64,000 bases of DNA from Rufibacter roseolus (lineage in GTDB: Bacteria > Bacteroidota > Bacteroidia > Cytophagales > Hymenobacteraceae). The first letter of the stretch is position 1, and the number at the start of each line of letters is the position of its first letter. Shown piece by piece: positions 1,003-63,284 of this stretch. The position numbers and the translations under genes were made by a program. The notes below the pieces were generated by a model. It worked only from the letters and a program-made list of their open reading frames with translations, had not been told where the DNA came from and did no database searches. The stretch is from contig NZ_JAFMSU010000001.1 of assembly GCF_017916365.1 (NCBI RefSeq), forward strand, positions 682,001-746,000, read 5' to 3'.

Positions 1003-1437
1003 CGCGCCAAGATAAAGTCTAGCTTGTCAGATTCTCTGTTTCTGCCTTCATTTTCTGAAAAGCGGCTCAAAATGGGTGTGGTGGTTTCCCTTTGAGAGTA
1101 GCAGGCGCCGTTTGGGTTGTTGGTGATAACACCAACAATGGCGAGTGAAAGCGGCTTGAAACAGAGACCCACCCCTACCCCTCCAAGGAGGGGAATTCTC
1201 TCCGATGCACTAGGACGCATTTGAACAGCAATAGAGGCGGTAGAAAAACAGGTCAAAAATGTTAAGGCAATCCCTTGTGGTTGCCCTAACACCGGGGCAA
1301 ACGCTAAAGGGCAACCATAAGGGATTGCCCCTACAATGGCCTGCAGCAGAAACATCGTTCAGGGTATCCGCAAAAAGAAAATCGGGACGCTCTTTGGAGG
1401 AACGTCCCGATTGGTATGGTCAATAATGAAATTCTAG
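1003..1437. other. Repeat-filled intergenic gap upstream of the phosphodiester glycosidase gene
   Basis: No credible gene. It holds one imperfect IPE palindrome near its left end, a small CCCCTCC/GGAGGGG palindrome at about 1179-1196, and an inverted pair of the widespread GGCAATCCCTTGTGG repeat (1266-1287 and 1308-1331). An open frame of 118 codons on the minus strand crosses these repeats and is not believed to be a gene. Confidence 0.7.
1266..1331. repeat. Inverted pair of the GGCAATCCCTTGTGGTTGCC repeat
   Basis: Two 22-24 base arms, reading GCAATCCCTTGTGGTTGCCC on the left and its near reverse complement on the right, separated by about 20 bases. Similar short arms occur in noncoding DNA of many unrelated bacteria. 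A further single arm is inside the MITE-like element at 40.3-40.5 kb of this window. Confidence 0.75.
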
Positions 1438-4083: not shown

Positions 4084-4120
4084 TGTTTTGGAGGTGTTTT
4101 CTGGAAAGAAAGGGAGAAAC
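4084..4120. repeat. IPE palindrome, degenerate copy
   Basis: GTTTTGGAGGTGTTTTC on the left and GGAAAGAAAGGGAGAAAC on the right; the core TGTTTTC is kept, the outer stem is decayed. It sits between two convergent genes. Confidence 0.45.
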
Positions 4121-4875: not shown

Positions 4876-4911
4876 GTTTTGAGGCTGATTTCCGGAATAG
4901 AGGCCGGAAAT
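4876..4911. repeat. IPE palindrome between paralogues
   Basis: Left arm GTTTTGAGGCTGATTTCC, right arm GGAATAGAGGCCGGAAAT. It fills most of the 49-base gap between the second and third paralogue. Confidence 0.6.
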
Positions 4912-5714: not shown

Positions 5715-6461
5715 TTATCGGAACAGGTTTTTGACTCTGTAGTAAAGACCACGTGGAGAATACCACTTATACCAGAAGGCACCACCGACTATAACAGTTT
5801 CTCCCATGGTGCTTGTGTCTTCGGAGAGAAGAATGGTTACTTCTGAGGCTCTCAATAATTCCGCTACCTTTCTCTCCTGGGGTATATAACCTATAAAAGA
5901 GATAATAACCGTTTGTTCTTCAGTTTGTATTCCTGTAGGAAGTTCCAAGGAAAAATACCCATTCACATCTGTGGGGGTGGCCATGGTAGTGCCTTTGAGT
6001 AGTACCGTTGTGCCTGGCATTGGGTTATTACCTTTCGCGTCCAGTATTCTTCCTTTAAGTACTACTAAGCTATCAGCGGCCAAAGCTTTTTGAGAAATTT
6101 CTTCTTCAGGCGCTGCGTCTCTGATAGACAATGGGAAAACAGGAGAGGGGTGTGCCTCCACCGGCTTCGTGTTTAACCACGCCGACAAACCTAGTACCGC
6201 AGCTCGCCAGGTCCAGCGCCGTCTGCTGCTTGCGGAAGTCGCCAGCAATTCCCTGCCTAGCTGATCATGCCTAAACTTTCCGCAGGTGCGACCTTCTTGC
6301 TTTGAAAGCCAATCCACTACTTCGGCGTCAGACATCCTGGTGAAGTCCACCACTGTTTTGGCGCAGCTTTGGCAAAAACGGCCCTGAAGCTCAGGTGACA
6401 TGGCGTTCCAGTCCTGGTGGCAGGGCTGGGGCACGGAGACGGTGAGGCGGCGGTTGGGCAT
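5715..6461 (-). CDS. Four-Cys motif / single-TM / CarboxypepD_reg protein, paralogue 1 of 3
   Basis: 248 residues, first gene of the tandem. Cys14 (PQPCHQDW), Cys30 and Cys33 (GRFCQSC), VVDFTRMSDAEVVDWL, and Cys60 (CGKFRHDQLGRE) define the N-terminal module. An Arg-rich stretch RRRW precedes the hydrophobic segment (about 80-97), which by the positive-inside rule puts the cysteine module in the cytoplasm. The outer part is a clear CarboxypepD_reg domain: LKGRILDAKGNNPMPGTTV, LLKGTTMATPTDVNGYFSL, VIISFIGYIPQERKV. Tail YYRVKNLFR matches the siblings. The three differ enough that they are old duplicates. The amino-acid permease gene diverges from it across a 92-base gap. Confidence 0.82.
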   Translation of the reverse strand: MPNRRLTVSVPQPCHQDWNAMSPELQGRFCQSCAKTVVDFTRMSDAEVVDWLSKQEGRTCGKFRHDQLGRELLATSASSRRRWTWRAAVLGLSAWLNTKPVEAHPSPVFPLSIRDAAPEEEISQKALAADSLVVLKGRILDAKGNNPMPGTTVLLKGTTMATPTDVNGYFSLELPTGIQTEEQTVIISFIGYIPQERKVAELLRASEVTILLSEDTSTMGETVIVGGAFWYKWYSPRGLYYRVKNLFR

Positions 6462-10062: not shown

Positions 10063-10106
10063 AAGCGTTTCAGCGCCGATTCTCGTAAATCAGCCCTGAA
10101 ACGCTT
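10063..10106. repeat. IPE palindrome, extended stem
   Basis: Outer stem AAGCGTTTCAG pairs with CTGAAACGCTT; inner core is weaker (CGCCGATT / AATCAG). It begins 20 bases after the dusB stop and may serve as its 3' hairpin. Confidence 0.7.
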
Positions 10107-11181: not shown

Positions 11182-12126
11182 ATGAAAGGTTTCATCTCGC
11201 CTACCCTGCATCCGTTAAAGTCACTTTTGTTGTTTATCGTGTTCGTGGTGGCGGGGCTGTTCATCGGGAATTTCCTGGCGGTGGTGCTGGTGAAAATGAT
11301 CTGGGGCTACGGGGTGGTGCAGACCGCCGAGATGCTGGGTAAGCCTTCTGCCTACCCGGAGAGCCGCAGCGCGTTGGTGCTGTTCCAGGGCATGGTGCAC
11401 TTTGTGGGATTCACAGTGGCCTCGCTCGCTTTCCTGCGGGTGAACGCCCATAGGCCCGGCGCTTTCCTTTCGCCTAGGGCGGTGGTGCCGTTTTACCTGC
11501 TTTTGGGCAGCGCCGTGCTGCTGCTGGTGATTCTGCCGGCTTCCTCCTGGGTGGTGCACTGGAACGCAACCGTAGATTTCCCGGCTTTTCTGGAGGGCTT
11601 TGAGCGCTGGGCCAAAGCCAAGGAAGATGCACTGCGGGAACTGACCCTGGAACTGACCAAGATCAACACCATTCCGCAGCTGATTTTGGGCATGGTGGTG
11701 TTTGCAGTGCTGCCCGCCATTGGAGAGGAACTGGCCTTCAGGGGCATTGTGCAGCAGGAATTGCAGCGCTGGTGGCGTAACCCGCACCTGGCCATCTGGG
11801 TGTCTGCCATTGTCTTCGGGATCATTCACCTGCAGTTCTACGGCGTGGTGCCGCGTATTATGCTGGGGCTGATCTTCGGGTATCTGTACTGGTGGTCTGG
11901 GAATATCTGGGTGCCTATCATCGGGCACTTTATGAACAATGGCTTTATGGTGCTCATGATGTTTCTGGCCCAGCGGCAGGCCGTAACCATGAACGTGGAG
12001 TCAACGGAGCCTAATTCCTGGCCATTGTCCTTGATTTCTCTGGGGCTCACCGCCATTCTATTGTACGGTTTGTACACCTCTTTCCGGCGCTTGCCGGCAC
12101 CCCTAGAGGAGGAGCCTCATTTCTAA
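11182..12126 (+). CDS. CPBP-family intramembrane metalloprotease (Abi/CaaX-like)
   Basis: 314 residues, about eight predicted helices. The CPBP (Abi) motifs are intact: motif 1 EELAFRG with paired glutamates and Arg, motif 2 in FGIIHLQFYG, and motif 3 GHFMNNGF. These residues form a membrane-embedded Zn site related to Rce1 CaaX prenyl endopeptidases; in bacteria members serve in protein processing and bacteriocin immunity, but substrates are mostly unknown. The loop AWAKAKEDALRELTLELTKI is amphipathic. Its stop codon overlaps an IPE palindrome and cdsA follows 79 bases later, so the two may be co-transcribed. Confidence 0.87.
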   Translation: MKGFISPTLHPLKSLLLFIVFVVAGLFIGNFLAVVLVKMIWGYGVVQTAEMLGKPSAYPESRSALVLFQGMVHFVGFTVASLAFLRVNAHRPGAFLSPRAVVPFYLLLGSAVLLLVILPASSWVVHWNATVDFPAFLEGFERWAKAKEDALRELTLELTKINTIPQLILGMVVFAVLPAIGEELAFRGIVQQELQRWWRNPHLAIWVSAIVFGIIHLQFYGVVPRIMLGLIFGYLYWWSGNIWVPIIGHFMNNGFMVLMMFLAQRQAVTMNVESTEPNSWPLSLISLGLTAILLYGLYTSFRRLPAPLEEEPHF

Positions 12127-12155
12127 GCCCTTTTCCTGAAATCAGCCTTAAAACA
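12120..12155. repeat. IPE palindrome overlapping a stop codon
   Basis: TTTCTAAGCCCTTTTCC / TGAAATCAGCCTTAAAAC. The TAA stop of the CPBP gene is part of the left arm, the only copy I see reaching into a coding sequence. Confidence 0.55.
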
Positions 12156-15231: not shown

Positions 15232-15280
15232 TCGGTGTCACGTAGCAGGTATTAAGTAACAAGACTTTTTAATTTCTGAT

Positions 15281-15325
15281 AAAACGAAGAAGCCTCATCT
15301 GGGAAAGATGAGGCTTCTTCGTTTT
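15281..15325. terminator. Bidirectional terminator between psd and the GAF-domain gene
   Basis: Perfect arms of AAAACGAAGAAGCCTCATCT and its complement around a GGGAA loop, with A-run on one side and T-run on the other, so it can end transcription from both convergent genes. An IPE half-copy (about 15330-15358) abuts it. Confidence 0.85.
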
Positions 15326-15391
15326 ACAGGTGTTTCTTAGAAATCGGGCCTGAAATGGCGTACTACCTGATACGCGCTATCTTATAAAACC

Positions 15392-15978: not shown

Positions 15979-16021
15979 TGCTGCCGGTATGCTGCGGGAA
16001 AGGGTGCCGGAGGAACTTTCA

Positions 16022-16055
16022 GTTTTGGGCTGTTTTTGGCGAAACAAGACAAAAA
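16022..16055. repeat. IPE palindrome
   Basis: GTTTTGGGCTGTTTTTGG then GAAACAAGACAAAAAG; right arm partly decayed. It lies 11 bases beyond the ribD stop. Confidence 0.55.
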
Positions 16056-16065
16056 GAGGCTGTTG

Positions 16066-21116: not shown

Positions 21117-22163
21117 ATGAAAATACTAATCACAGGCGGGGCCGGTTTCATTGGTTCCCATGTAGTGCGGCTATTTGTGACCAAGTATCCAAACTACAAG
21201 ATATTCAACCTGGATAAGCTTACCTATGCTGGGAATCTTCAGAACCTGACGGATATCGAGGATGCCCCTAACTACACCTTCATCAAAGGCGACATCACCG
21301 ATCAGGAGTATATCAACGGTTTGTTCCAGGAACATCAGTTTGACGCCGTGATGCACCTGGCCGCCGAGTCGCACGTGGACCGGTCCATCACGGATCCTAT
21401 GGCCTTTGTGCGCACCAACGTGAACGGAACCTGCAACCTGCTGCACGCTGCCAAAGAACTCTGGAAATCTGATTACTCTGGAAAGGTGTTCTACCACATC
21501 TCAACTGACGAGGTGTACGGTTCACTGGGCGAGGAAGGCATGTTCACTGAGGAGACCAAGTATGATCCACGTTCTCCGTATTCGGCCTCTAAAGCCAGTT
21601 CAGATCACTTCGTGCGGGCCTACCACCACACTTACGGCTTGCCGGTGAAGATCTCTAACTGTTCCAATAACTACGGACCCAATCACTTCCCTGAGAAGCT
21701 GATTCCGTTGGCCTTGAACAACATCAAGAACAACAGACCGGTGCCGGTATATGGCAAAGGCGAGAATATTAGAGATTGGTTGTACGTGATTGACCACGCC
21801 CGTGCCATTGACGATGTGTTTCACAAAGGCAAAGAAGGCGATACCTACAACATCGGGGGCGTGAACGAGTGGCGCAACATTGACCTCATTCACCTTCTGT
21901 GCGACATCATGGACCAGAAACTGAACCGTGAGCCAGGTACCTCCCGCAAACTCATCACCTTCGTCACCGACAGAGCAGGCCACGATTTACGCTACGCCAT
22001 TGATTCTTCCAAGATCATGAATGAGCTGGGCTGGAAGCCATCCGTTACGTTTGAGGAAGGCCTGGAGAAAACGGTAGACTGGTACCTGCAAAACGAGGAG
22101 TGGTTGCAGAATGTGACCTCCGGAAGTTACCAGGAATACTACAACGAGCAATATGCCCGCTAA
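21117..22163 (+). CDS. rfbB: dTDP-glucose 4,6-dehydratase
   Basis: 348 residues. Second step of dTDP-rhamnose (and other dTDP-deoxysugar) synthesis. [41 protein letters not shown] with the Asp-Glu proton shuttle, YSASKASSDHFVRAYHHTYGLP with YxxxK, and NNYGPNHFPEKLIPL identify it firmly. rfbA is present four genes on, but rfbC and rfbD are absent from this window, so whether rhamnose is the end product cannot be decided here. Confidence 0.95.
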   Translation: MKILITGGAGFIGSHVVRLFVTKYPNYKIFNLDKLTYAGNLQNLTDIEDAPNYTFIKGDITDQEYINGLFQEHQFDAVMHLAAESHVDRSITDPMAFVRTNVNGTCNLLHAAKELWKSDYSGKVFYHISTDEVYGSLGEEGMFTEETKYDPRSPYSASKASSDHFVRAYHHTYGLPVKISNCSNNYGPNHFPEKLIPLALNNIKNNRPVPVYGKGENIRDWLYVIDHARAIDDVFHKGKEGDTYNIGGVNEWRNIDLIHLLCDIMDQKLNREPGTSRKLITFVTDRAGHDLRYAIDSSKIMNELGWKPSVTFEEGLEKTVDWYLQNEEWLQNVTSGSYQEYYNEQYAR

Positions 22164-22180: not shown

Positions 22181-22232
22181 AAAGATGCGTTTAGAGGCTG
22201 TTTTCCCGAAAACAGCCTCTAAACGCATCTTT
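22181..22232. repeat. IPE palindrome, perfect 25-bp arms
   Basis: The best copy: two perfectly complementary 25-base arms around a two-base spacer. Core is GGCTGTTTTC / GAAAACAGCC, outer stem AAAGATGCGTTTAGA. It lies 17 bases past the rfbB stop and ends in TTTGTTT, so it may terminate the first half of the sugar cluster. Confidence 0.9.
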
Positions 22233-22321: not shown

Positions 22322-22358
22322 GTTTTTAAGCCAGTTTTCTCAAAGTTGCCCTAAAACT
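22322..22358. repeat. IPE palindrome
   Basis: GTTTTTAAGCCAGTTTTC then CAAAGTTGCCCTAAAAC; several mismatches. Second copy in the same gap, 33 bases before the next start. Confidence 0.55.
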
Positions 22359-24278: not shown

Positions 24279-24298
24279 AAGCGATAAACATCAAACGG

Positions 24299-24338
24299 AA
24301 AGCCCTGTGAGATTGAGTTCTTCACAGGGCTTTCTATT
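24299..24338 (+). terminator. Terminator after rfbA
   Basis: AAAGCCCTGTGA / TCACAGGGCTTT stem, followed by CTATTTAT. It ends the nucleotide-sugar cluster. An IPE copy starts at its right foot. Confidence 0.8.
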
Positions 24339-24372
24339 TATAGGCTGTTTTTAGGGAATTGGGGCAGAAACT
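24336..24372. repeat. IPE palindrome abutting a terminator
   Basis: TTTATAGGCTGTTTTTAGG then GAATTGGGGCAGAAACTG; decayed copy directly joined to the rfbA terminator and 3 bases from the chrA stop. Confidence 0.5.
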
Positions 24373-25569: not shown

Positions 25570-25609
25570 CGTTTTTAGGCCTGTTTTATAAAAATAGACT
25601 TAAAAAACG
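25570..25609. repeat. IPE palindrome abutting a terminator
   Basis: CGTTTTTAGGCCTGTTTTA then AAAATAGACTTAAAAAACG; joined at its right end to the terminator of the oxygenase gene, on the side away from that gene. Confidence 0.75.
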
Positions 25610-25634
25610 AAAGGAGCCCCTAAAGGCTCCTTTC
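25609..25634 (-). terminator. Terminator after the 2OG-Fe(II) oxygenase gene
   Basis: GAAAGGAGCC / GGCTCCTTTC with a CCTAAA loop. Seen from the minus strand it is followed by a T-run contributed by the adjacent IPE. Confidence 0.8.
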
Positions 25635-27878: not shown

Positions 27879-27913
27879 GTTTTGGACCTGTTTTTAAGAA
27901 ATCGGCCTAAAAC
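27879..27913. repeat. IPE palindrome
   Basis: GTTTTGGACCTGTTTTTAA / GAAATCGGCCTAAAAC; near-consensus arms. Confidence 0.7.
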
Positions 27914-28017
27914 AATTTGCTGCTGCAGATAGGGGAAAAGCCTGTGATATTTGTCTTGAAAGAGTTGTAATAAATAATTGGTGAATGCTACAAATAAGGT
28001 AAGTCACTTTCACAGAG

Positions 28018-28059
28018 GCTGTTTTGGGCAGGTTTAGAGAAAATCGTGCCCAAAACAGC
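28018..28059. repeat. IPE palindrome, extended stem
   Basis: GCTGTTTTGGGCAGGTTT / AAATCGTGCCCAAAACAGC with an AGAGA loop region; outer stem of 11 pairs. Confidence 0.7.
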
Positions 28060-30210: not shown

Positions 30211-30250
30211 GCTGTTTGCGGACTGATTTCCGGAAAACAGGCTTAAAACG
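30211..30250. repeat. IPE palindrome between the two permease genes
   Basis: GCTGTTTGCGGACTGATTTC / GGAAAACAGGCTTAAAAC. It sits inside what should be one transcription unit, showing that an IPE need not end transcription. Confidence 0.65.
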
Positions 30251-31549: not shown

Positions 31550-31590
31550 CTGTTTTGAGCCCGATTTATAGAAAACGACACCAAAACACC
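31550..31590. repeat. IPE palindrome between permease and adaptor genes
   Basis: CTGTTTTGAGCCCGATTTAT / GAAAACGACACCAAAACACC, imperfect. Again inside an apparent operon. Confidence 0.6.
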
Positions 31591-33333: not shown

Positions 33334-33358
33334 AACCTTTGCCCACTTCTTCTCAAAG

Positions 33359-33386
33359 CGCGACAACTCTGCCCGGGGTTGTCGCG
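33359..33386 (+). terminator. Terminator ending the MacAB-like operon
   Basis: CGCGACAAC / GTTGTCGCG stem with a nine-base loop, followed by TTCTGTTTT. The T-rich tail is also the beginning of the IPE next to it. Confidence 0.75.
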
Positions 33387-33390
33387 TTCT

Positions 33391-33426
33391 GTTTTAGCTT
33401 TGTTTCCCGGAAAAGAGCCGTAAAAC
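33391..33426. repeat. IPE palindrome abutting a terminator
   Basis: GTTTTAGCTTTGTTTCC / GGAAAAGAGCCGTAAAAC, downstream of the operon terminator by four bases. Confidence 0.65.
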
Positions 33427-34655: not shown

Positions 34656-34691
34656 GTTTCGGGGCTGTTTTCTGTATAACAGCCCCGAAAC
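34656..34691. repeat. IPE palindrome, perfect 14-bp arms
   Basis: GTTTCGGGGCTGTT / AACAGCCCCGAAAC with an eight-base middle. The outer stem sequence TTTCGGGG/CCCCGAAA differs from other copies yet pairs perfectly, an example of covariation. Confidence 0.88.
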
Positions 34692-35782: not shown

Positions 35783-35824
35783 GTTTCTTTTCAGGCCTCT
35801 TTTCCTGAAAACAGGTCAGAAACA
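35783..35824. repeat. IPE palindrome
   Basis: GTTTCTTTTCAGGCCTCTTTTC / GAAAACAGGTCAGAAAC; lies beyond the GH3-gene terminator. Confidence 0.65.
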
Positions 35825-35909: not shown

Positions 35910-38900
35910 TTAGTTGCGCTTGCTTTCCACGGTATCAGGTTTTGGTGGGGTGACGCGGGATTTGTCAATGGCGTCGTAGACAACTTGCATCACCTTGGTG
36001 CGGGTGTTCAGCTTGCTCAGAACCGAGCTCTCGCGGGTGGGGTGCACGCGGTTAGACAGGAACACATACACCAGTTGGTTCACCGGGTCTACCCAGGTGT
36101 AAATGCCCGTGAAGCCGGTGTGCCCGAAGCTCTCGGCCGGGGCGCTCCTGGCGGCGTTCCCGTTCTCGGTGCCCGGCTTGGACGGACGGTCAAACCCGAG
36201 GGCGCGGTAGTTGTCTGGGCAGAACTGGCATTTGCTGAACGTGCTCACCGTTTTGTTGGCGATGTAGCGCTTGCCGGCGTAGATCCCATCGTTGAGGTAC
36301 AGTTGCATCACCTTGGCCAGGTCATTCGCGGTCCCGAACAAGCCTGCGTGGCCGCTGATGCCGCCCAGCATGGCAGCGCCTTCGTCATGCACCGTGCCGT
36401 GCAGCAACTGCTTCCGGAACAAGGTATCCACTTCGGTAGGCACAATGCGCGACAACGGGTAGTACTTGTAAGGGTTGAACGTTAATGTAGTAGCGCCCAG
36501 CGGCCCGTAGATGTTCTTTTTCAGGTAGGTCTCAAAGTCCTCGCCGGTGATGTTTTTCACTACCAGCGGCGCCAGAATGAAAGACAGGTCACTGTACACG
36601 TAGCCCGGCTTGTCATTCAGTGGTGACTTCTTGATCTGTTCGTAAATTTCCTCGGCGTAATCTTTCCGGATGAACAGGTTCTTGGCCACGCGGTACGGGA
36701 ATTTATCAGAGGAGTCTGCTTTGAAGATGTTCGGCTTCAGCTCGCCGTTGGCCTTCACGGTCTCTCTCCAAAACGGAATCCAGGACTTCAGGCGGGCCTG
36801 GTGCGTGAGGATGTCGCGGTAGCGGAGGTTCTCTTTGTCTGAGCCTTTCATCAAAGGCAGGTACTCGCCCAGGGTTTTGTCCACATCAAACTTGCCCTCG
36901 CCGTTCAGTTTCATGTAAGCCGCCAACGATGTGGTGATCTTGGTTACCGAGGCCAGGTCATACAGGTCTGTGTTCTTCACCGGCATCTGGTTCTCGTAGG
37001 TATGATACCCGAACGACTTGGCGTAGATCACTTTCCCGTTCTTGGCTACTAGCACCTGAGCGCCAGGGGTGGCTTTGGCTCTAATGGCCTGGTTTACCAG
37101 CGTGTCAATCTGCGCGAAATCCTCTGACCGAAGGCCTACGGCTTCTGGTTGCGTATAGGCCAGCCGGAGGCCGGCATCGGTTTTCAGGCCATTGTTGATT
37201 TTGAAGTAATTAGACACGTTCACCGGCAACTTGCCTTTGGCGCCCACCCCCCCGAAAATAATCTGGGCGGCTACGTCCTGGGTTAAGGCATTCTCCTGGT
37301 AGGTGGCCAATACGCCGTGCGCTTTCTCAATGTCTTCAAAACGGTTGAGGCTGTACACGTTGCCAAATACGGTCACAATGGTCTGTTTGGAACGGATCAG
37401 GTCTTTCAGGAACAGGTTCATCTCGGCGGTAATTCCGAAGGTGTTATTGCCGGAGGCCTTCAGTTGCAGCTTATGGACACCTACCAGAATGGTGTTATAG
37501 TTTTTCAGCTTGTCTTTAAGCGCCTGCAGGTCAGCGATGGAGCTGGTGGGCGGCAAGAAGAAGTTGTCCACTTTCGCGTATTTGGCCAGGTTCCGCTGGA
37601 ATTCAGTCTCTGTGCTGGTGCCCAGCGCCAGAGCGGCAATATTCAACGTGTCCAGCGTTTTGATAGGCAGGATGTTGTCTTTGTTGCGCAGCAGCGTAAG
37701 CGAAGCCTCAGTTAGCTGGCGGTTAATGAATTCGGCGGTGGGGTTATTCAGGTCCTGGATCAGGTTTTTGGTTTCAATGGGTTGCCACTTGTCCAGACCC
37801 GCCCACTGTTTAGCGGCCAGTACTTTCCGGCAACGGGCATCTACCTCGGCCTGGGTAATTTCCTTGTTCGCGATGGCTTTCTTCACCTCCTCAATGGTGG
37901 TTTTCACGTCCATGGTGTTCAGGAGAACATCGTTCCCAGCCAGTAAGGCCTTCACGTCCACAATGCCGGGGGCGTAAAACTTGGCCACGCCTTGCATGTT
38001 CAGGGCATCGGTGAAAACCAGGCCTTTAAAGCCCATCTCTTTCTTGAGCAGATCGCTCACAATGTTCTTGGAGAGGGTAGAGGCTACGTCTTTGGTGTTG
38101 TCCAGCACCGGAATGTTCATGTGCGCCACCATGAGGCTGCCCAGACCGTTTTTCATCAGCTCTCTGAAGGGGTACAATTCAGTAGAATCTAACCGAAGTT
38201 TAGAGAAGTGTAGCACCGGCAAGCCGTAGTGCGAGTCCACGTTGGTGTCGCCGTGGCCGGGGAAGTGCTTGGCGTTGGCCATCACTTTATTGTCCTGCAT
38301 GCCTTTCACGTACGCCAGGGATTTGCGGGTCACGTTGTATTTGTCTTCGCCGAAGGAGCGGAACCCGATCACGGGGTTGTTGGCGTTGTTGTTCACATCC
38401 ACTACCGGCGCGAAGTTCACATGGATGCCCAACCGGCGGCACTGGCGCGCAATCTCCGCGCCCATGTCATAGATCAGTTTCTCGTTTTCAATTCCGCCCA
38501 AGCTCATCTGGTACGGGAACGATACCGTGCTGTCCAGGCGCATGCCCAGGCCCCACTCGCCGTCAATGGAAATCATGAGCGGCACTTTGCTTTCACGCTG
38601 GTAGCGGTTGGTCATGTGCGCCTGCCGTACCGGTCCGCCCTGGAAGAAGATCAATCCGCCCACCTTATAGGTAGTCACCAACCGGCTGATAGAGTCTATG
38701 TGCACCTGGTTTTTGTTGGAGTACACCGGAATCATGATCAGCTGCGCAATGCGCTCCTCGGGCGTGAGGGTCTTGAACACGGAATCTACCCATTTCTGGT
38801 TTGCACCCATAAATGGCGGATCGGTTTTTGGATTAAACACTGGCACCGCAGGTTTCTTGGCCGCCGCTTTCTTGCTTGCCGTTACCTTTTTAGAAGCCGG

Positions 38901-39050
38901 GGCTTTCTTTTTAGCAGCAGCAGAGGCCTTTTTGGAAACGGTTTTGGTGGTTTTAGCGGATTTTTTGCCGCGGGTCTGGCCGTGCAGGGAAATGAACCCT
39001 ACCGCAAACAGAAAAATGAAGACGAGGGGGAGAAAACGGAGGTTTTTCAA
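35910..39050 (-). CDS. GH3 beta-N-acetylhexosaminidase / serine beta-lactamase-like fusion
   Basis: About 1046 residues from a TTG at 39050, giving a fine signal peptide (LKNLRFLPLVFIFLFAVGFISLHG); a TTG 29 codons upstream is possible. A Lys/Ala-rich linker (KKSAKTTKTVSKKASAAAKKK) follows. GH3 N-terminal domain, NagZ type: KHFPGHGDTNVDSHYGLPVL and LVFTDALNMQGV with the catalytic Asp. Middle GH3_C-like domain. From about 660: class C beta-lactamase-like hydrolase with SVTK (in DLASVTKITTS), YSDLSFILAPL and FGHTGFTG. Likely outer-envelope enzyme trimming GlcNAc from peptidoglycan fragments plus a peptidase/esterase activity. The fusion is known in Bacteroidota. Confidence 0.88.
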   Translation of the reverse strand: MKNLRFLPLVFIFLFAVGFISLHGQTRGKKSAKTTKTVSKKASAAAKKKAPASKKVTASKKAAAKKPAVPVFNPKTDPPFMGANQKWVDSVFKTLTPEERIAQLIMIPVYSNKNQVHIDSISRLVTTYKVGGLIFFQGGPVRQAHMTNRYQRESKVPLMISIDGEWGLGMRLDSTVSFPYQMSLGGIENEKLIYDMGAEIARQCRRLGIHVNFAPVVDVNNNANNPVIGFRSFGEDKYNVTRKSLAYVKGMQDNKVMANAKHFPGHGDTNVDSHYGLPVLHFSKLRLDSTELYPFRELMKNGLGSLMVAHMNIPVLDNTKDVASTLSKNIVSDLLKKEMGFKGLVFTDALNMQGVAKFYAPGIVDVKALLAGNDVLLNTMDVKTTIEEVKKAIANKEITQAEVDARCRKVLAAKQWAGLDKWQPIETKNLIQDLNNPTAEFINRQLTEASLTLLRNKDNILPIKTLDTLNIAALALGTSTETEFQRNLAKYAKVDNFFLPPTSSIADLQALKDKLKNYNTILVGVHKLQLKASGNNTFGITAEMNLFLKDLIRSKQTIVTVFGNVYSLNRFEDIEKAHGVLATYQENALTQDVAAQIIFGGVGAKGKLPVNVSNYFKINNGLKTDAGLRLAYTQPEAVGLRSEDFAQIDTLVNQAIRAKATPGAQVLVAKNGKVIYAKSFGYHTYENQMPVKNTDLYDLASVTKITTSLAAYMKLNGEGKFDVDKTLGEYLPLMKGSDKENLRYRDILTHQARLKSWIPFWRETVKANGELKPNIFKADSSDKFPYRVAKNLFIRKDYAEEIYEQIKKSPLNDKPGYVYSDLSFILAPLVVKNITGEDFETYLKKNIYGPLGATTLTFNPYKYYPLSRIVPTEVDTLFRKQLLHGTVHDEGAAMLGGISGHAGLFGTANDLAKVMQLYLNDGIYAGKRYIANKTVSTFSKCQFCPDNYRALGFDRPSKPGTENGNAARSAPAESFGHTGFTGIYTWVDPVNQLVYVFLSNRVHPTRESSVLSKLNTRTKVMQVVYDAIDKSRVTPPKPDTVESKRN

Positions 39051-39147
39051 GGCAAAAAGCAAGGATAATGGAAGTACGTAGCGCGAAAGAGTGCAAATTA
39101 CAGCATAATTCTGGAAAACAGGCTCATAAAGGAGCAAAGTTCCAGTT

Positions 39148-40272: not shown

Positions 40273-40310
40273 TGTTTTGGGCCTGATTTTTCAAATTGAG
40301 GCTTAAAACG
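40273..40310. repeat. IPE palindrome
   Basis: GTTTTGGGCCTGATTTTTC / AAATTGAGGCTTAAAAC; left arm at consensus, right arm with three changes. Confidence 0.68.
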
Positions 40311-41983: not shown

Positions 41984-42008
41984 TAAGTAGCTCTCCTGTT
42001 GAAGCAAA

Positions 42009-42052
42009 GTCTGTTTTAAGGCTATTTTGGTAAAAACAGCCTTGAAACGGAC
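42009..42052 (+). repeat. IPE palindrome with T-run, possible dacB terminator
   Basis: GTCTGTTTTAAGGCTATTTT / AAAACAGCCTTGAAACGGAC, then CTTTTTT. Begins 26 bases after the dacB stop. Confidence 0.78.
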
Positions 42053-42069
42053 TTTTTTCTAACTCCCTT

Positions 42070-42528: not shown

Positions 42529-42582
42529 AAGCGCCTCGTTTTTAGCCTGTTTTGTGAAAATCAGGTCAAAAACGAGGCGCTT
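42529..42582. repeat. IPE palindrome, extended outer stem
   Basis: Outer stem AAGCGCCTCGTTTTT / AAAAACGAGGCGCTT encloses AGCCTGTTTTGTGAAAATCAGGT. It ends 18 bases from the NlpC/P60 stop and looks like a terminator with the IPE core in place of its loop. Confidence 0.85.
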
Positions 42583-44789: not shown

Positions 44790-44823
44790 GTTTTAGGCAG
44801 TTTTTGAGAGAAACACCTCAGAA
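44790..44823. repeat. IPE palindrome, degenerate
   Basis: GTTTTAGGCAGTTTTTGAG then GAAACACCTCAGAAT; right arm decayed. Eight bases past the preceding stop. Confidence 0.5.
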
Positions 44824-44840
44824 TCGCAGGTGGGTTTCTG

Positions 44841-47815: not shown

Positions 47816-47851
47816 GTTTTAGGGCTGTTTTCAGAAAAGTAAGCCAAAAGT
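47816..47851. repeat. IPE palindrome
   Basis: GTTTTAGGGCTGTTTTC / GAAAAGTAAGCCAAAAG; a few mismatches in the right arm. Confidence 0.7.
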
Positions 47852-47866: not shown

Positions 47867-47899
47867 AGACCTCACAGGTTTTGAAAACCTGTGAGGTCT
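47867..47899 (+). repeat. ACCTCACAGGTTTT palindrome, perfect copy; possible terminator
   Basis: AGACCTCACAGGTTTT / AAAACCTGTGAGGTCT, perfect arms around one base, then a T-rich tail. May end the TonB receptor transcript. A second copy is at 56539-56571. Confidence 0.85.
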
Positions 47900-48092: not shown

Positions 48093-48129
48093 AAAGATGG
48101 GTAGTTGTAAGTGAAATGTTGAAAGATGA

Positions 48130-48178
48130 AGCCCTGCTTTGGGCCTGATTTCTAAAAAACAGGTCCAAAGCAGGGCTT
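48130..48178. repeat. IPE palindrome, extended stem
   Basis: AGCCCTGCTTTGGGCCTGAT on the left, AACAGGTCCAAAGCAGGGCT on the right; 18 paired bases. Ends 35 bases from the DUF3592 stop. Confidence 0.88.
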
Positions 48179-48212
48179 TATTCATTTATAAGAAAAAGCT
48201 TCTTAGAGAGAC

Positions 48213-50096: not shown

Positions 50097-50140
50097 GCGT
50101 TTTAGGGCCATTTTTCAGGAAGAAGGCTTAAAAGGAAAAC
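50097..50140. repeat. IPE palindrome
   Basis: CGTTTTAGGGCCATTTTTC / GAAGAAGGCTTAAAAGG; imperfect arms. It is far (about 175 bases) from the M28 start and not at a 3' end. Confidence 0.55.
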
Positions 50141-50551
50141 GGGAAACCGGCCCGGTGGTTTTGTGGTTTGGATAGGATTTGCGGAGTGCCGCAGGAAAGG
50201 GATATCTGGCCGAAGGATAGGGGGCGGGAAAGTCTGGAAAACCTAAGGTCTTCCCTTAGAAGAGAAAAAACTGCGGGCTTTCAGGGTAGGTATTAATACT
50301 TTGCCAAGAAGCGGGTGCTGGTGTTTTTAGGCGATTTTTACGTAGAAGATGAGGGAAAGTACTGGTGGTGTTGTAACCATATTGTGCTGTTTTTGAGGCG
50401 ATTTCATGTAAAAAGGTAAAAATTTATATATATCCGGGGAGGAATACTCTGGCGCCTGGTTTCTATTTGGAGTTTGCCGGAGGATTTAAAATAATTGGAG
50501 AAAAGTCAGATGTGAACGCAACTATTCGGGCGCATTTGCGATAAAATGGAT

Positions 50552-51041: not shown

Positions 51042-51086
51042 AAACAGAAAAGCCGTTCACTAATTAGTGAACGGCTTTTCTGTTTT
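51042..51086. terminator. Bidirectional terminator, perfect 22-bp arms
   Basis: Arms AAACAGAAAAGCCGTTCAC... and the exact complement GTGAACGGCTTTTCTGTTT around the centre TAATTA, with T-runs on both sides. It serves both convergent genes; no IPE is adjacent here. Confidence 0.9.
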
Positions 51087-52577: not shown

Positions 52578-52615
52578 AATTTTAGGCCTATTTTCAGGAA
52601 AAAGGCTTTGAAACA
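52578..52615. repeat. IPE palindrome upstream of the helicase promoter
   Basis: AATTTTAGGCCTATTTTCA / GGAAAAAGGCTTTGAAAC. Between two divergent 5' ends; overlaps the place of the -33 region of the helicase promoter. Confidence 0.65.
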
Positions 52616-53280: not shown

Positions 53281-53330
53281 AAAAGGCGTTTAGAGGCTGT
53301 TTTCATTGAAACAGCCTCTAAACGCCTTTT
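53281..53330. repeat. IPE palindrome, perfect 22-bp arms
   Basis: AAAAGGCGTTTAGAGGCTG... / ...CAGCCTCTAAACGCCTTTT around TTTTCATTGAAA. Lies between convergent genes; with flanking A- and T-runs it could act as a two-way terminator. The same outer stem (GCGTTTAGAG) is used in the copy at 22181. Confidence 0.92.
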
Positions 53331-56538: not shown

Positions 56539-56571
56539 AGACCTCACAGGTTTTGAAAACCTATGAGGTCT
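56539..56571. repeat. ACCTCACAGGTTTT palindrome, second copy
   Basis: AGACCTCACAGGTTTT / AAAACCTATGAGGTCT, one mismatch compared with 47867-47899. Confidence 0.8.
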
Positions 56572-56859: not shown

Positions 56860-56896
56860 ATTTTAAGGCTCTTTCCTTAAAATTAGCCTTAAAACG
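56860..56896. repeat. IPE palindrome abutting the carB terminator
   Basis: ATTTTAAGGCTCTTTCC / TTAAAATTAGCCTTAAAAC, on the far side of the terminator from carB. Confidence 0.7.
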
Positions 56897-60151: not shown

Positions 60152-60191
60152 GCGTTTTAGGTTCCATTTACAGAAAACAGGCCCAAAACGC
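60152..60191. repeat. IPE palindrome
   Basis: GCGTTTTAGGTTCCATTTAC / GAAAACAGGCCCAAAACGC. Ends 17 bases from the DinG-like gene stop. Confidence 0.75.
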
Positions 60192-63247: not shown

Positions 63248-63284
63248 GTTTTGAGGGTGTTTTGGGGAATGAAGGCCTGAAACG
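63248..63284. repeat. IPE palindrome abutting a terminator
   Basis: GTTTTGAGGGTGTTTTGG / GGAATGAAGGCCTGAAAC, with the OYE-gene terminator directly to its right. Confidence 0.6.

Follow-up and report, generated by a model that had tools for sequence, protein, structure and literature searches.

DNA uptake sequences (USS/DUS) are genus-specific short words of 9–12 bp that occur in thousands of copies, are common inside genes and are in some cases built into terminators, and a topological role at gene ends has been proposed for BIME-gyrase sites. The footprints of HU and IHF extend over about 36 bp, with contacts in the minor groove and a bend near the centre. REPs and BIMEs are short palindromes present in high copy number between convergent and tandem genes and downstream of coding regions; REPs are described as often limited to a species, REPs and BIMEs as binding several proteins, CGTC repeats as known from Bacteroidetes and REP candidates as numbering thousands in species of the Bacteroidota (PMC3733652, PMC2817692, PMC12306157). 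A stem-loop forms part of the REP definition (PMC12306157). GapR of Caulobacter occupies the 3′ ends of genes and the space between convergent genes, where positive supercoils gather (PMC8360656), and HIP1 of cyanobacteria is a clade-specific, over-represented 8-bp palindrome tied to methyltransferases (PMC4390886). Here we describe a family of 36-bp dyads in the genus Rufibacter that can be set beside these systems.

The stretch of 64,000 nucleotides analysed (the window) comprises positions 682001–746000 of contig C1 in a genome of 5.5 Mb (G000; other genomes are coded G002–G025). The original prediction, made from the sequence of this stretch, was that about 30 palindromes, roughly one per 2 kb, occupy its intergenic spaces, and our data confirm that a dense, mostly intergenic repeat family is real in Rufibacter. 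A hairpin scan found 32 palindromes in the window, several with the core that had been described, versus 4–9 in five shuffled versions. The palindrome at 22181–22232 is exact, with 25-bp arms and a 2-bp centre, and the other copies that had been named are present at 34656, 42529, 53281 and 48126 (originally given as 48130). Sites were then called with a symmetric weight matrix, fitted by iteration and with its threshold fixed on one shuffle set, in a 464-kb sample of G000 that includes 20 further stretches of 20 kb. In the window, 42 dyad sites pass this threshold, and the 33 with a score above 20 (table 1) agree with the predicted number and density. The sample as a whole contains 293 sites versus 13 after order-3 shuffling, and a simple pattern has 1612 matches across G000 versus 15 for a reversed control pattern. 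Extrapolation from samples that cover about 8% of G000 and about 9% of the genome of a second species, G014, gives an estimate of approximately 3,300 dyad sites in G000 (with the shuffle share subtracted) and 1,700 in G014. The intergenic bias stood up as well: 221 of the 293 sites fall in intergenic DNA, although coding sequence makes up 83% of the sample, with both counts depending on crude codon-usage gene calls made for this analysis. Twenty strong sites (score above 25) lie inside called genes, and some of these gene calls are doubtful. Sites are evenly spread in G000 (variance 4.7 at a mean of 9.7 per 20 kb). At the gathering score, Rfam yields no match in the window or in 80 kb of G014; no description of the family was found in the open-licence literature, the main text of the RepRanger paper does not mention Rufibacter, and a near-consensus dyad pattern had no match in viral contigs.

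Table 1. Dyad sites with a score above 20 in the window (positions within the window; score from the weight matrix).
Position	Strand	Score	Remarks
1038..1073	.	27.9	within called ORF
4085..4120	.	27.1	convergent gap
4876..4911	.	33.3	
6355..6390	.	29.5	within ORF without coding score
9886..9921	.	33.9	
10067..10102	.	32.9	partly hairpin
12119..12154	.	35.0	
15321..15356	.	30.6	overlaps end of terminator-like hairpin 15280–15326
16021..16056	.	26.5	
22189..22224	.	42.3	hairpin class; core of palindrome 22181–22232; after stop at 22163
22322..22357	.	28.9	second in gap of 22189 site; not hairpin class
24336..24371	.	30.8	adjoins hairpin 24293–24339
25571..25606	.	31.6	adjoins hairpin 25609–25634
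27879..27914	.	34.1	
28021..28056	.	26.6	partly hairpin
30214..30249	.	35.9	between two MacB/FtsX-like genes; in 7/7 syntenic genomes (weaker in G003)
31552..31587	.	35.0	between MacB/FtsX-like and HlyD-like genes; in 6/7 syntenic genomes
33391..33426	.	34.0	right after hairpin 33357–33388
34656..34691	.	37.3	hairpin class
35788..35823	.	35.4	convergent gap
40274..40309	.	38.0	in ORF without coding score, probably intergenic
42013..42048	.	41.6	within palindrome 42006–42055
42538..42573	.	41.1	within palindrome 42529–42582
44790..44825	.	21.1	
47816..47851	.	34.3	
48136..48171	.	36.9	within palindrome 48126–48181
50099..50134	.	31.7	divergent gap
50389..50424	.	21.2	divergent gap
52579..52614	.	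34.9	gap called divergent
53288..53323	.	38.1	within palindrome 53281–53330; hairpin class
56860..56895	.	36.5	
60154..60189	.	36.5	
63248..63283	.	29.5	

The window also holds other elements. Another palindrome family, distinct from the dyads and of the form AGACCTCACAGGTTTT-G-AAAACCTGTGAGGTCT, is represented by two near-identical copies (47867–47899 and 56539–56571), and a perfect palindrome with 22-bp arms and no loop (AAACAGAAAAGCCGTTCACTAA and its complement) lies at 51042–51085, outside the dyad family. A single protein encoded at 35913–39137 combines glycosyl hydrolase family 3 and beta-lactamase-fold domains.

The consensus is a fixed 36-bp dyad, GTTTT-N7-TTTTC-NN-GAAAA-N7-AAAAC, with a pyrimidine preceding the first G. 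Its centre, which had been given as 0–8 bases, has 2 bp in about 91% of copies in G000 and 93% in G014, and the steady part of the site is not the GC core that had been proposed: near-invariance is confined to the cores of the four T/A tracts (in the G000 sample, 91–96% of copies have T at positions 3, 4, 14 and 15), whereas the GGCCTG middle is variable (RGGCCTG, approximately 32–71%). The dyad can be divided into four GTTTT elements, two per half and spaced by 11 bp, and a blind dyad scan recovers the same layout, i.e. GTTT..AAAC at distances 21 and 32. Both arms are of equal make-up once oriented by transcription, and the flanks, which are alike on both sides, show only C/T at position 0 and a richness in C at −1 before becoming near random; by this composition, an end tag of the REP type (GTAG or CGTC) is absent from them. 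Halves on their own are near chance. At scores above 14, G000 has 39 lone half-sites versus 19–22 in shuffled sequence, with 360 inside dyads, and G014 has 5 versus 3, with 279 inside dyads; the excess in G000 is 1.6- to 3-fold at scores above 12–16 and there is little in G014, and inverted pairs of lone half-sites number nine in G000 and one in G014. In its fixed length and its constrained contact positions, the dyad has the form of a sequence-specific DNA–protein site.

This constraint can be followed in 26 window sites that were traced into up to seven syntenic genomes, with some misalignments inflating the substitution values. Substitution amounts to 4.4% at positions 3 and 4, to 7.9 and 8.9% at positions 14 and 15, and to 16% and 22% at positions 2 and 16; elsewhere in the dyad it is 26–45% (40–45% at positions 5–7 and 26–33% at positions 8–13), and in the flanks it is 29–32%. 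The orthologues show selection on the four A/T tract cores. In G004 and G008, the orthologues of the region at 25571 contain related inserts of about 165 bp, which share GAGTAAGGTTCTG and a stretch with TTTTTGAGCCTCGTAGCAGCGCTACGAAGGTGATAAAAG, lie on different sides of the same gap and look like a mobile element.

With respect to genes, the sites cluster at 3′ ends. Among gaps of at least 50 bp, 40/51 convergent, 114/181 tandem and 25/58 divergent gaps hold a site in G000, and the corresponding figures are 28/41, 86/168 and 14/43 in G014. In G000, a stop lies within 120 bp of 100 of the 131 tandem sites and of 48 of the 51 convergent ones. Even in tandem gaps of 300–700 bp, site density in G000 runs from 9.1 to 3.3 sites per kb at 18–100 bp past the stop and is 0.4–1.8 per kb beyond 130 bp; tandem gaps of G014 show the same direction (7.1–2.9 near the stop versus 0–2.5 farther away). 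When a single site in a short gap is counted for both of the ends that face it, 163/283 gene 3′ ends and 94/297 gene 5′ ends have a site within 130 bp in G000, as do 116/250 and 63/254, respectively, in G014. Close pairs are avoided, with 6% of neighbour distances being below 150 bp versus 27% for random intergenic positions. This placement bears on the idea of a DNA-uptake or similar transfer signal, which would have accumulated by molecular drive and been parked where it does no harm. Thousands of copies, restriction to a genus, even spread, partial use in terminators and T tracts about one helical turn apart are all compatible with such a signal, but lone half-sites are near chance, the 36-bp obligate dyads do not resemble the known uptake words, and the first 100 bp past a stop are strongly preferred even in long gaps; we consider this explanation very unlikely.

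A further aspect of the 3′ ends is that dyad sites have hairpins as neighbours. In tandem gaps of G000, 15 of 32 upstream hairpins end at most 8 bp from the start of a site, versus 2 of 40 for random positions; in G014, 11 of 20 end at the site start, a count that comes with no random control. At 15280–15326 in the window, the T run of a terminator-like hairpin is at the same time the outer T tract of the dyad site. Tandem ends with the motif are richer in separate strong hairpins (0.29) than those without it (0.18), and strong hairpins are found at 0.68–0.73 of convergent ends in Rufibacter when the motif is counted and at 0.47–0.50 when it is not, the range in sister genera being 0.43–0.88. 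Because the motif and separate hairpins are present side by side, a simple replacement of terminators by the motif was ruled out. A bound dyad could alternatively act as a roadblock that halts RNA polymerase from either side, and the presence of symmetric sites at convergent and tandem ends, the abutting hairpins and the larger share of separate hairpins at motif-bearing tandem ends would fit this. Yet the conserved sites at 30214 and 31552 are located between genes of what is likely an ABC-MacB-MacB-HlyD operon, in which genes farther along would be silenced by a hard block, so that a hard transcription stop is unlikely; moreover, at a site that a hairpin abuts, RNA polymerase would need to have entered the site by the time it reaches the U tract. 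Overall, we consider a roadblock quite unlikely.

An important question is whether the dyads themselves are selected as hairpins or cruciforms, as had been proposed from outer stems that change while still pairing. Arm pairing in 273 copies with a 2-bp centre is close to that expected from independent columns (z between −1.2 and 2.1, with 4.0 at position 6), the z values in G000 being mostly slightly positive. When 44-mers were folded and compared with arm-swapped chimeras, 11.4% versus 1.1% fell below −20 kcal/mol, whereas below −12 kcal/mol the shares were 21% and 20%. Since chimeras differ from real copies only at the lower energy and pairing is near the independent-column expectation, there are two populations, i.e. 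a minority of true extended hairpins, which makes up about a tenth of copies by folding energy and more by looser criteria, and a majority without clear hairpin selection. With a looser stem score, site-centred hairpins are found in G000 at 28/129 tandem, 16/49 convergent (32/98 when the 49 sites are oriented from both sides) and 1/31 divergent sites, and in G014, where the consensus pairs by itself, at 27/87 tandem and 14/35 convergent sites. The same division is visible between orthologues: for three hairpin-class window sites, 41 double changes stay paired versus 4 that are broken (the site at 22189 having compensatory changes in G004, G003 and G002), while for 23 other window sites, some of which are partly hairpins, the numbers are 39 and 21, and 212 of the 290 one-sided changes at these 23 sites disrupt a pair. 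The covarying copies that had been singled out at 22181, 34656 and 53281, and less strictly those at 42529 and 48130, fall in or close to the hairpin minority, in which compensatory changes do occur from one species to another. Selection on a hairpin or cruciform is retained for this minority; as a general explanation it was rejected for the majority of copies, given the independence of columns, the folding of chimeras and the changes between orthologues.

These findings also weigh on the view that the whole family consists of RNA hairpins acting as bidirectional intrinsic terminators or as protectors of mRNA 3′ ends. Besides location at gene 3′ ends, the distribution of site-centred hairpins among gap types, the compensatory changes in the three hairpin-class sites and the agreement of convergent ends with those of sister genera once the motif is counted, it can draw on two mild signals: tract changes that keep a U.G pair outnumber those that break it (64 versus 44 in G000, p 0.067; 24 versus 18 in G014, p 0.44), and T is slightly raised (37–41%) 10–12 bp downstream of sites in tandem gaps, with no strong T run. 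The form of an intrinsic terminator, i.e. a stable, GC-rich hairpin with a U run after it, is however not that of the family as a whole, as pairing does not clearly exceed expectation in most copies, their folding is no better than that of chimeras, one-sided changes mostly break pairs in the sites outside the hairpin class, and separate terminator hairpins stand beside the motif. RNA hairpins therefore seem an unlikely explanation for the family, whereas its hairpin minority probably represents intrinsic terminator stems.

The dyad sites are restricted to a single genus, Rufibacter, within the genomes searched. When two mismatches are allowed, the pattern matches 1043–2449 times in each of 16 genomes of the genus (controls 7–23), 0–37 times in nine genomes from five other genera of the family (controls 2–21) and 6–60 times in 14 genomes of other families (controls 6–58); a small excess appears in three of the genomes from the same family (G016, 32 versus 12; G018, 37 versus 21; G023, 31 versus 16). 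With one mismatch, eight genomes of the genus have 349–1614 matches, and none of 382 other genomes of the order exceeds 25, the control of the genome with 25 being 29. The exact near-consensus pattern was found in 29 stretches among 84,980 genomes, all of them in four Rufibacter strains, from which the genus is inferred to be Rufibacter; this agrees with the family, Hymenobacteraceae, that the original prediction had in view. Five sister genera, each represented by 80 kb of a single genome, yielded nothing comparable in a dyad scan; its largest z, 8.6, belongs to a short TTAT..ATAA palindrome in G017, versus 14.3 and 12.7 in G000. G025, from another family of the order, has many copies of a near-identical dispersed repeat, GTTTTTAGCCTATTTTGTCAAAAAACTGGYAAAACC, in a layout superficially like that of the Rufibacter dyad.

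Within the genus, the sites are largely shared between relatives, with 17–20 of 19–21 sites in common in five pairwise comparisons, and with 11 of 13 in the remaining one. These six comparisons contain 55 indels of 25–90 bp, two of them with the motif; the first reflects misalignment of a site that is shared, and the second, 43 bp in G012 with a site-like sequence of score 21, plausibly adds a site. Because most sites are shared and about one indel in 55 adds one, the system was present in the ancestor of the compared genomes and has largely been kept in place since, with no evident recent transposition. A REP-like mobile spread, which had also been considered, finds no support in the indels, nor in the distribution or surroundings of Y1 (IS200/RAYT-like) transposase genes. 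None of the 20 window ORFs compared with Pfam is a transposase, in line with the predicted absence from the window. Of the 16 Rufibacter genomes, 15 have a Y1 match; the exception, G007, has 1435 dyad sites. Six of 45 Y1 places were looked at: each has at least one dyad site within 3.3 kb, and two are flanked by sites on both sides, or three if one weak site is counted, which is not clearly above site density. An origin of the REP/RAYT type is not supported by these data. That the dyads are degenerate REP- or MITE-like palindromes that an ancestral transposase seeded and that no longer have a function would be in keeping with palindromic, genus-limited sequences placed at 3′ ends like REPs (PMC3733652), with Y1 genes in nearly all genomes and with the G012 indel, but the T-tract cores are strongly constrained today, motif-bearing indels are scarce and G007 combines many sites with no Y1 match; we regard this explanation as improbable. 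Ancient seeding by mobility followed by selection is possible.

In G014, the family is sharper than in G000: 400 kb contain 155 sites versus 1 after shuffling, 147 of them intergenic, with the consensus GTTTTTGGCCTGTTTTC-NN-GAAAACAGGCCAAAAAC. The variable middle positions 7, 9, 10 and 12 show no covariation (z −1.9 to 0.2), whereas the outer flank has a pairing excess at −1 to −4 (z 3.0–4.1), as expected if some copies are terminator stems; 14.8% of copies versus 4.0% of chimeras fold below −25 kcal/mol. Among 150 copies, 93 have CA or TG as their centre (TA in 9, CG in 6), the next base is G in 91 of 91 copies oriented by CA, and along transcription CA (35) and TG (19) both occur. This preference was not seen in G000 (YR in 69 of 220). 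Positions 5–6 and 17 and the CA/TG centre thus form site ‘dialects’, sharp in G014 and loose in G000, which look as if specificity or selection differed between the species.

What, then, might these dyads be? A symmetric site of fixed length with little covariation between its arms in most copies argues for a symmetric DNA-binding protein, and the 3′-end, convergent-rich placement, which matches the locations of positive supercoils and of REPs, makes an architectural or topological role the first choice. We therefore favour the reading that the dyads are recognition sites of a putative protein with two-fold symmetry that plays such a role at the 3′ ends of genes, and put its probability at about 0.45. 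A regulator or nucleoid site was among the options of the original prediction and is supported as a possibility. The binder would be a homodimer, or a tetramer given the four similar GTTTT elements, that reads four A/T tracts and tolerates the GC-rich middle. With their cores about 4 and 15 bp to either side of the dyad centre, the tracts would lie roughly on one face of the helix, which, together with the flexible centre in G014, where the CA/TG step suggests bending, points to contacts in the minor groove and a bent site. Such a protein could hold or relieve the positive supercoiling left by transcription, or insulate neighbouring genes from each other, and a minority of its sites may additionally have become stems of intrinsic terminators. 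Two known candidates for the binder are unsupported by profile counts across 16 genomes of the genus. No extra HU-family protein was found genus-wide, with PF00216 having one clear copy in 16 of 16 genomes (and weak second matches in three, with a second match to PF18291 in one) and Rufibacter and sister genera alike having one clear HU copy; the GapR family was matched in none of the 16 genomes, with a Caulobacter control being matched.

More tentatively, a sequence-specific protein private to the genus and bound behind roughly half of all genes bordering a gap of at least 50 bp might be a bacterial counterpart of an insulator at gene ends, with thousands of sites that would date back at least to the ancestor of the genus and have been kept in place; we lean against this wider idea but think it worth stating. 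The usual view of extragenic palindromes is that of RNA hairpins or mobile debris, whereas here the orthologues show selection on four A/T tract cores and, in most copies, little that would point to selection on a hairpin, and the sites mark gene 3′ ends in a single genus among the genomes searched. If a protein does bind them, one genus has evolved a system of gene ends that spans its genome, and the gain of this system, the seeding of its sites and their upkeep would be open to comparison with sister genera that lack the system.

In relation to described systems, the dyad sites are like REPs and BIMEs in being high-copy, palindromic, extragenic and downstream of genes, but differ in that they have no GTAG/CGTC tag, mostly no selected stem-loop and no consistent link to Y1 genes, avoid close pairs and are mostly shared in place between relatives. 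Their location at 3′ ends and between convergent genes is also that of GapR, which, however, follows overtwisted DNA and not a 36-bp dyad (PMC8360656). From DNA uptake sequences they are set apart by half-sites that are near chance when alone and by their nearly complete confinement to intergenic DNA in G014. The Rufibacter dyad shares with HIP1 that it is a clade-specific, over-represented and symmetric DNA word, HIP1 not being known to be anchored to gene 3′ ends. Finally, although no HU paralogue common to the genus was found, a length of about 36 bp, putative minor-groove contacts and a putative central bend are features that the dyad would have in common with the sites of HU and IHF.
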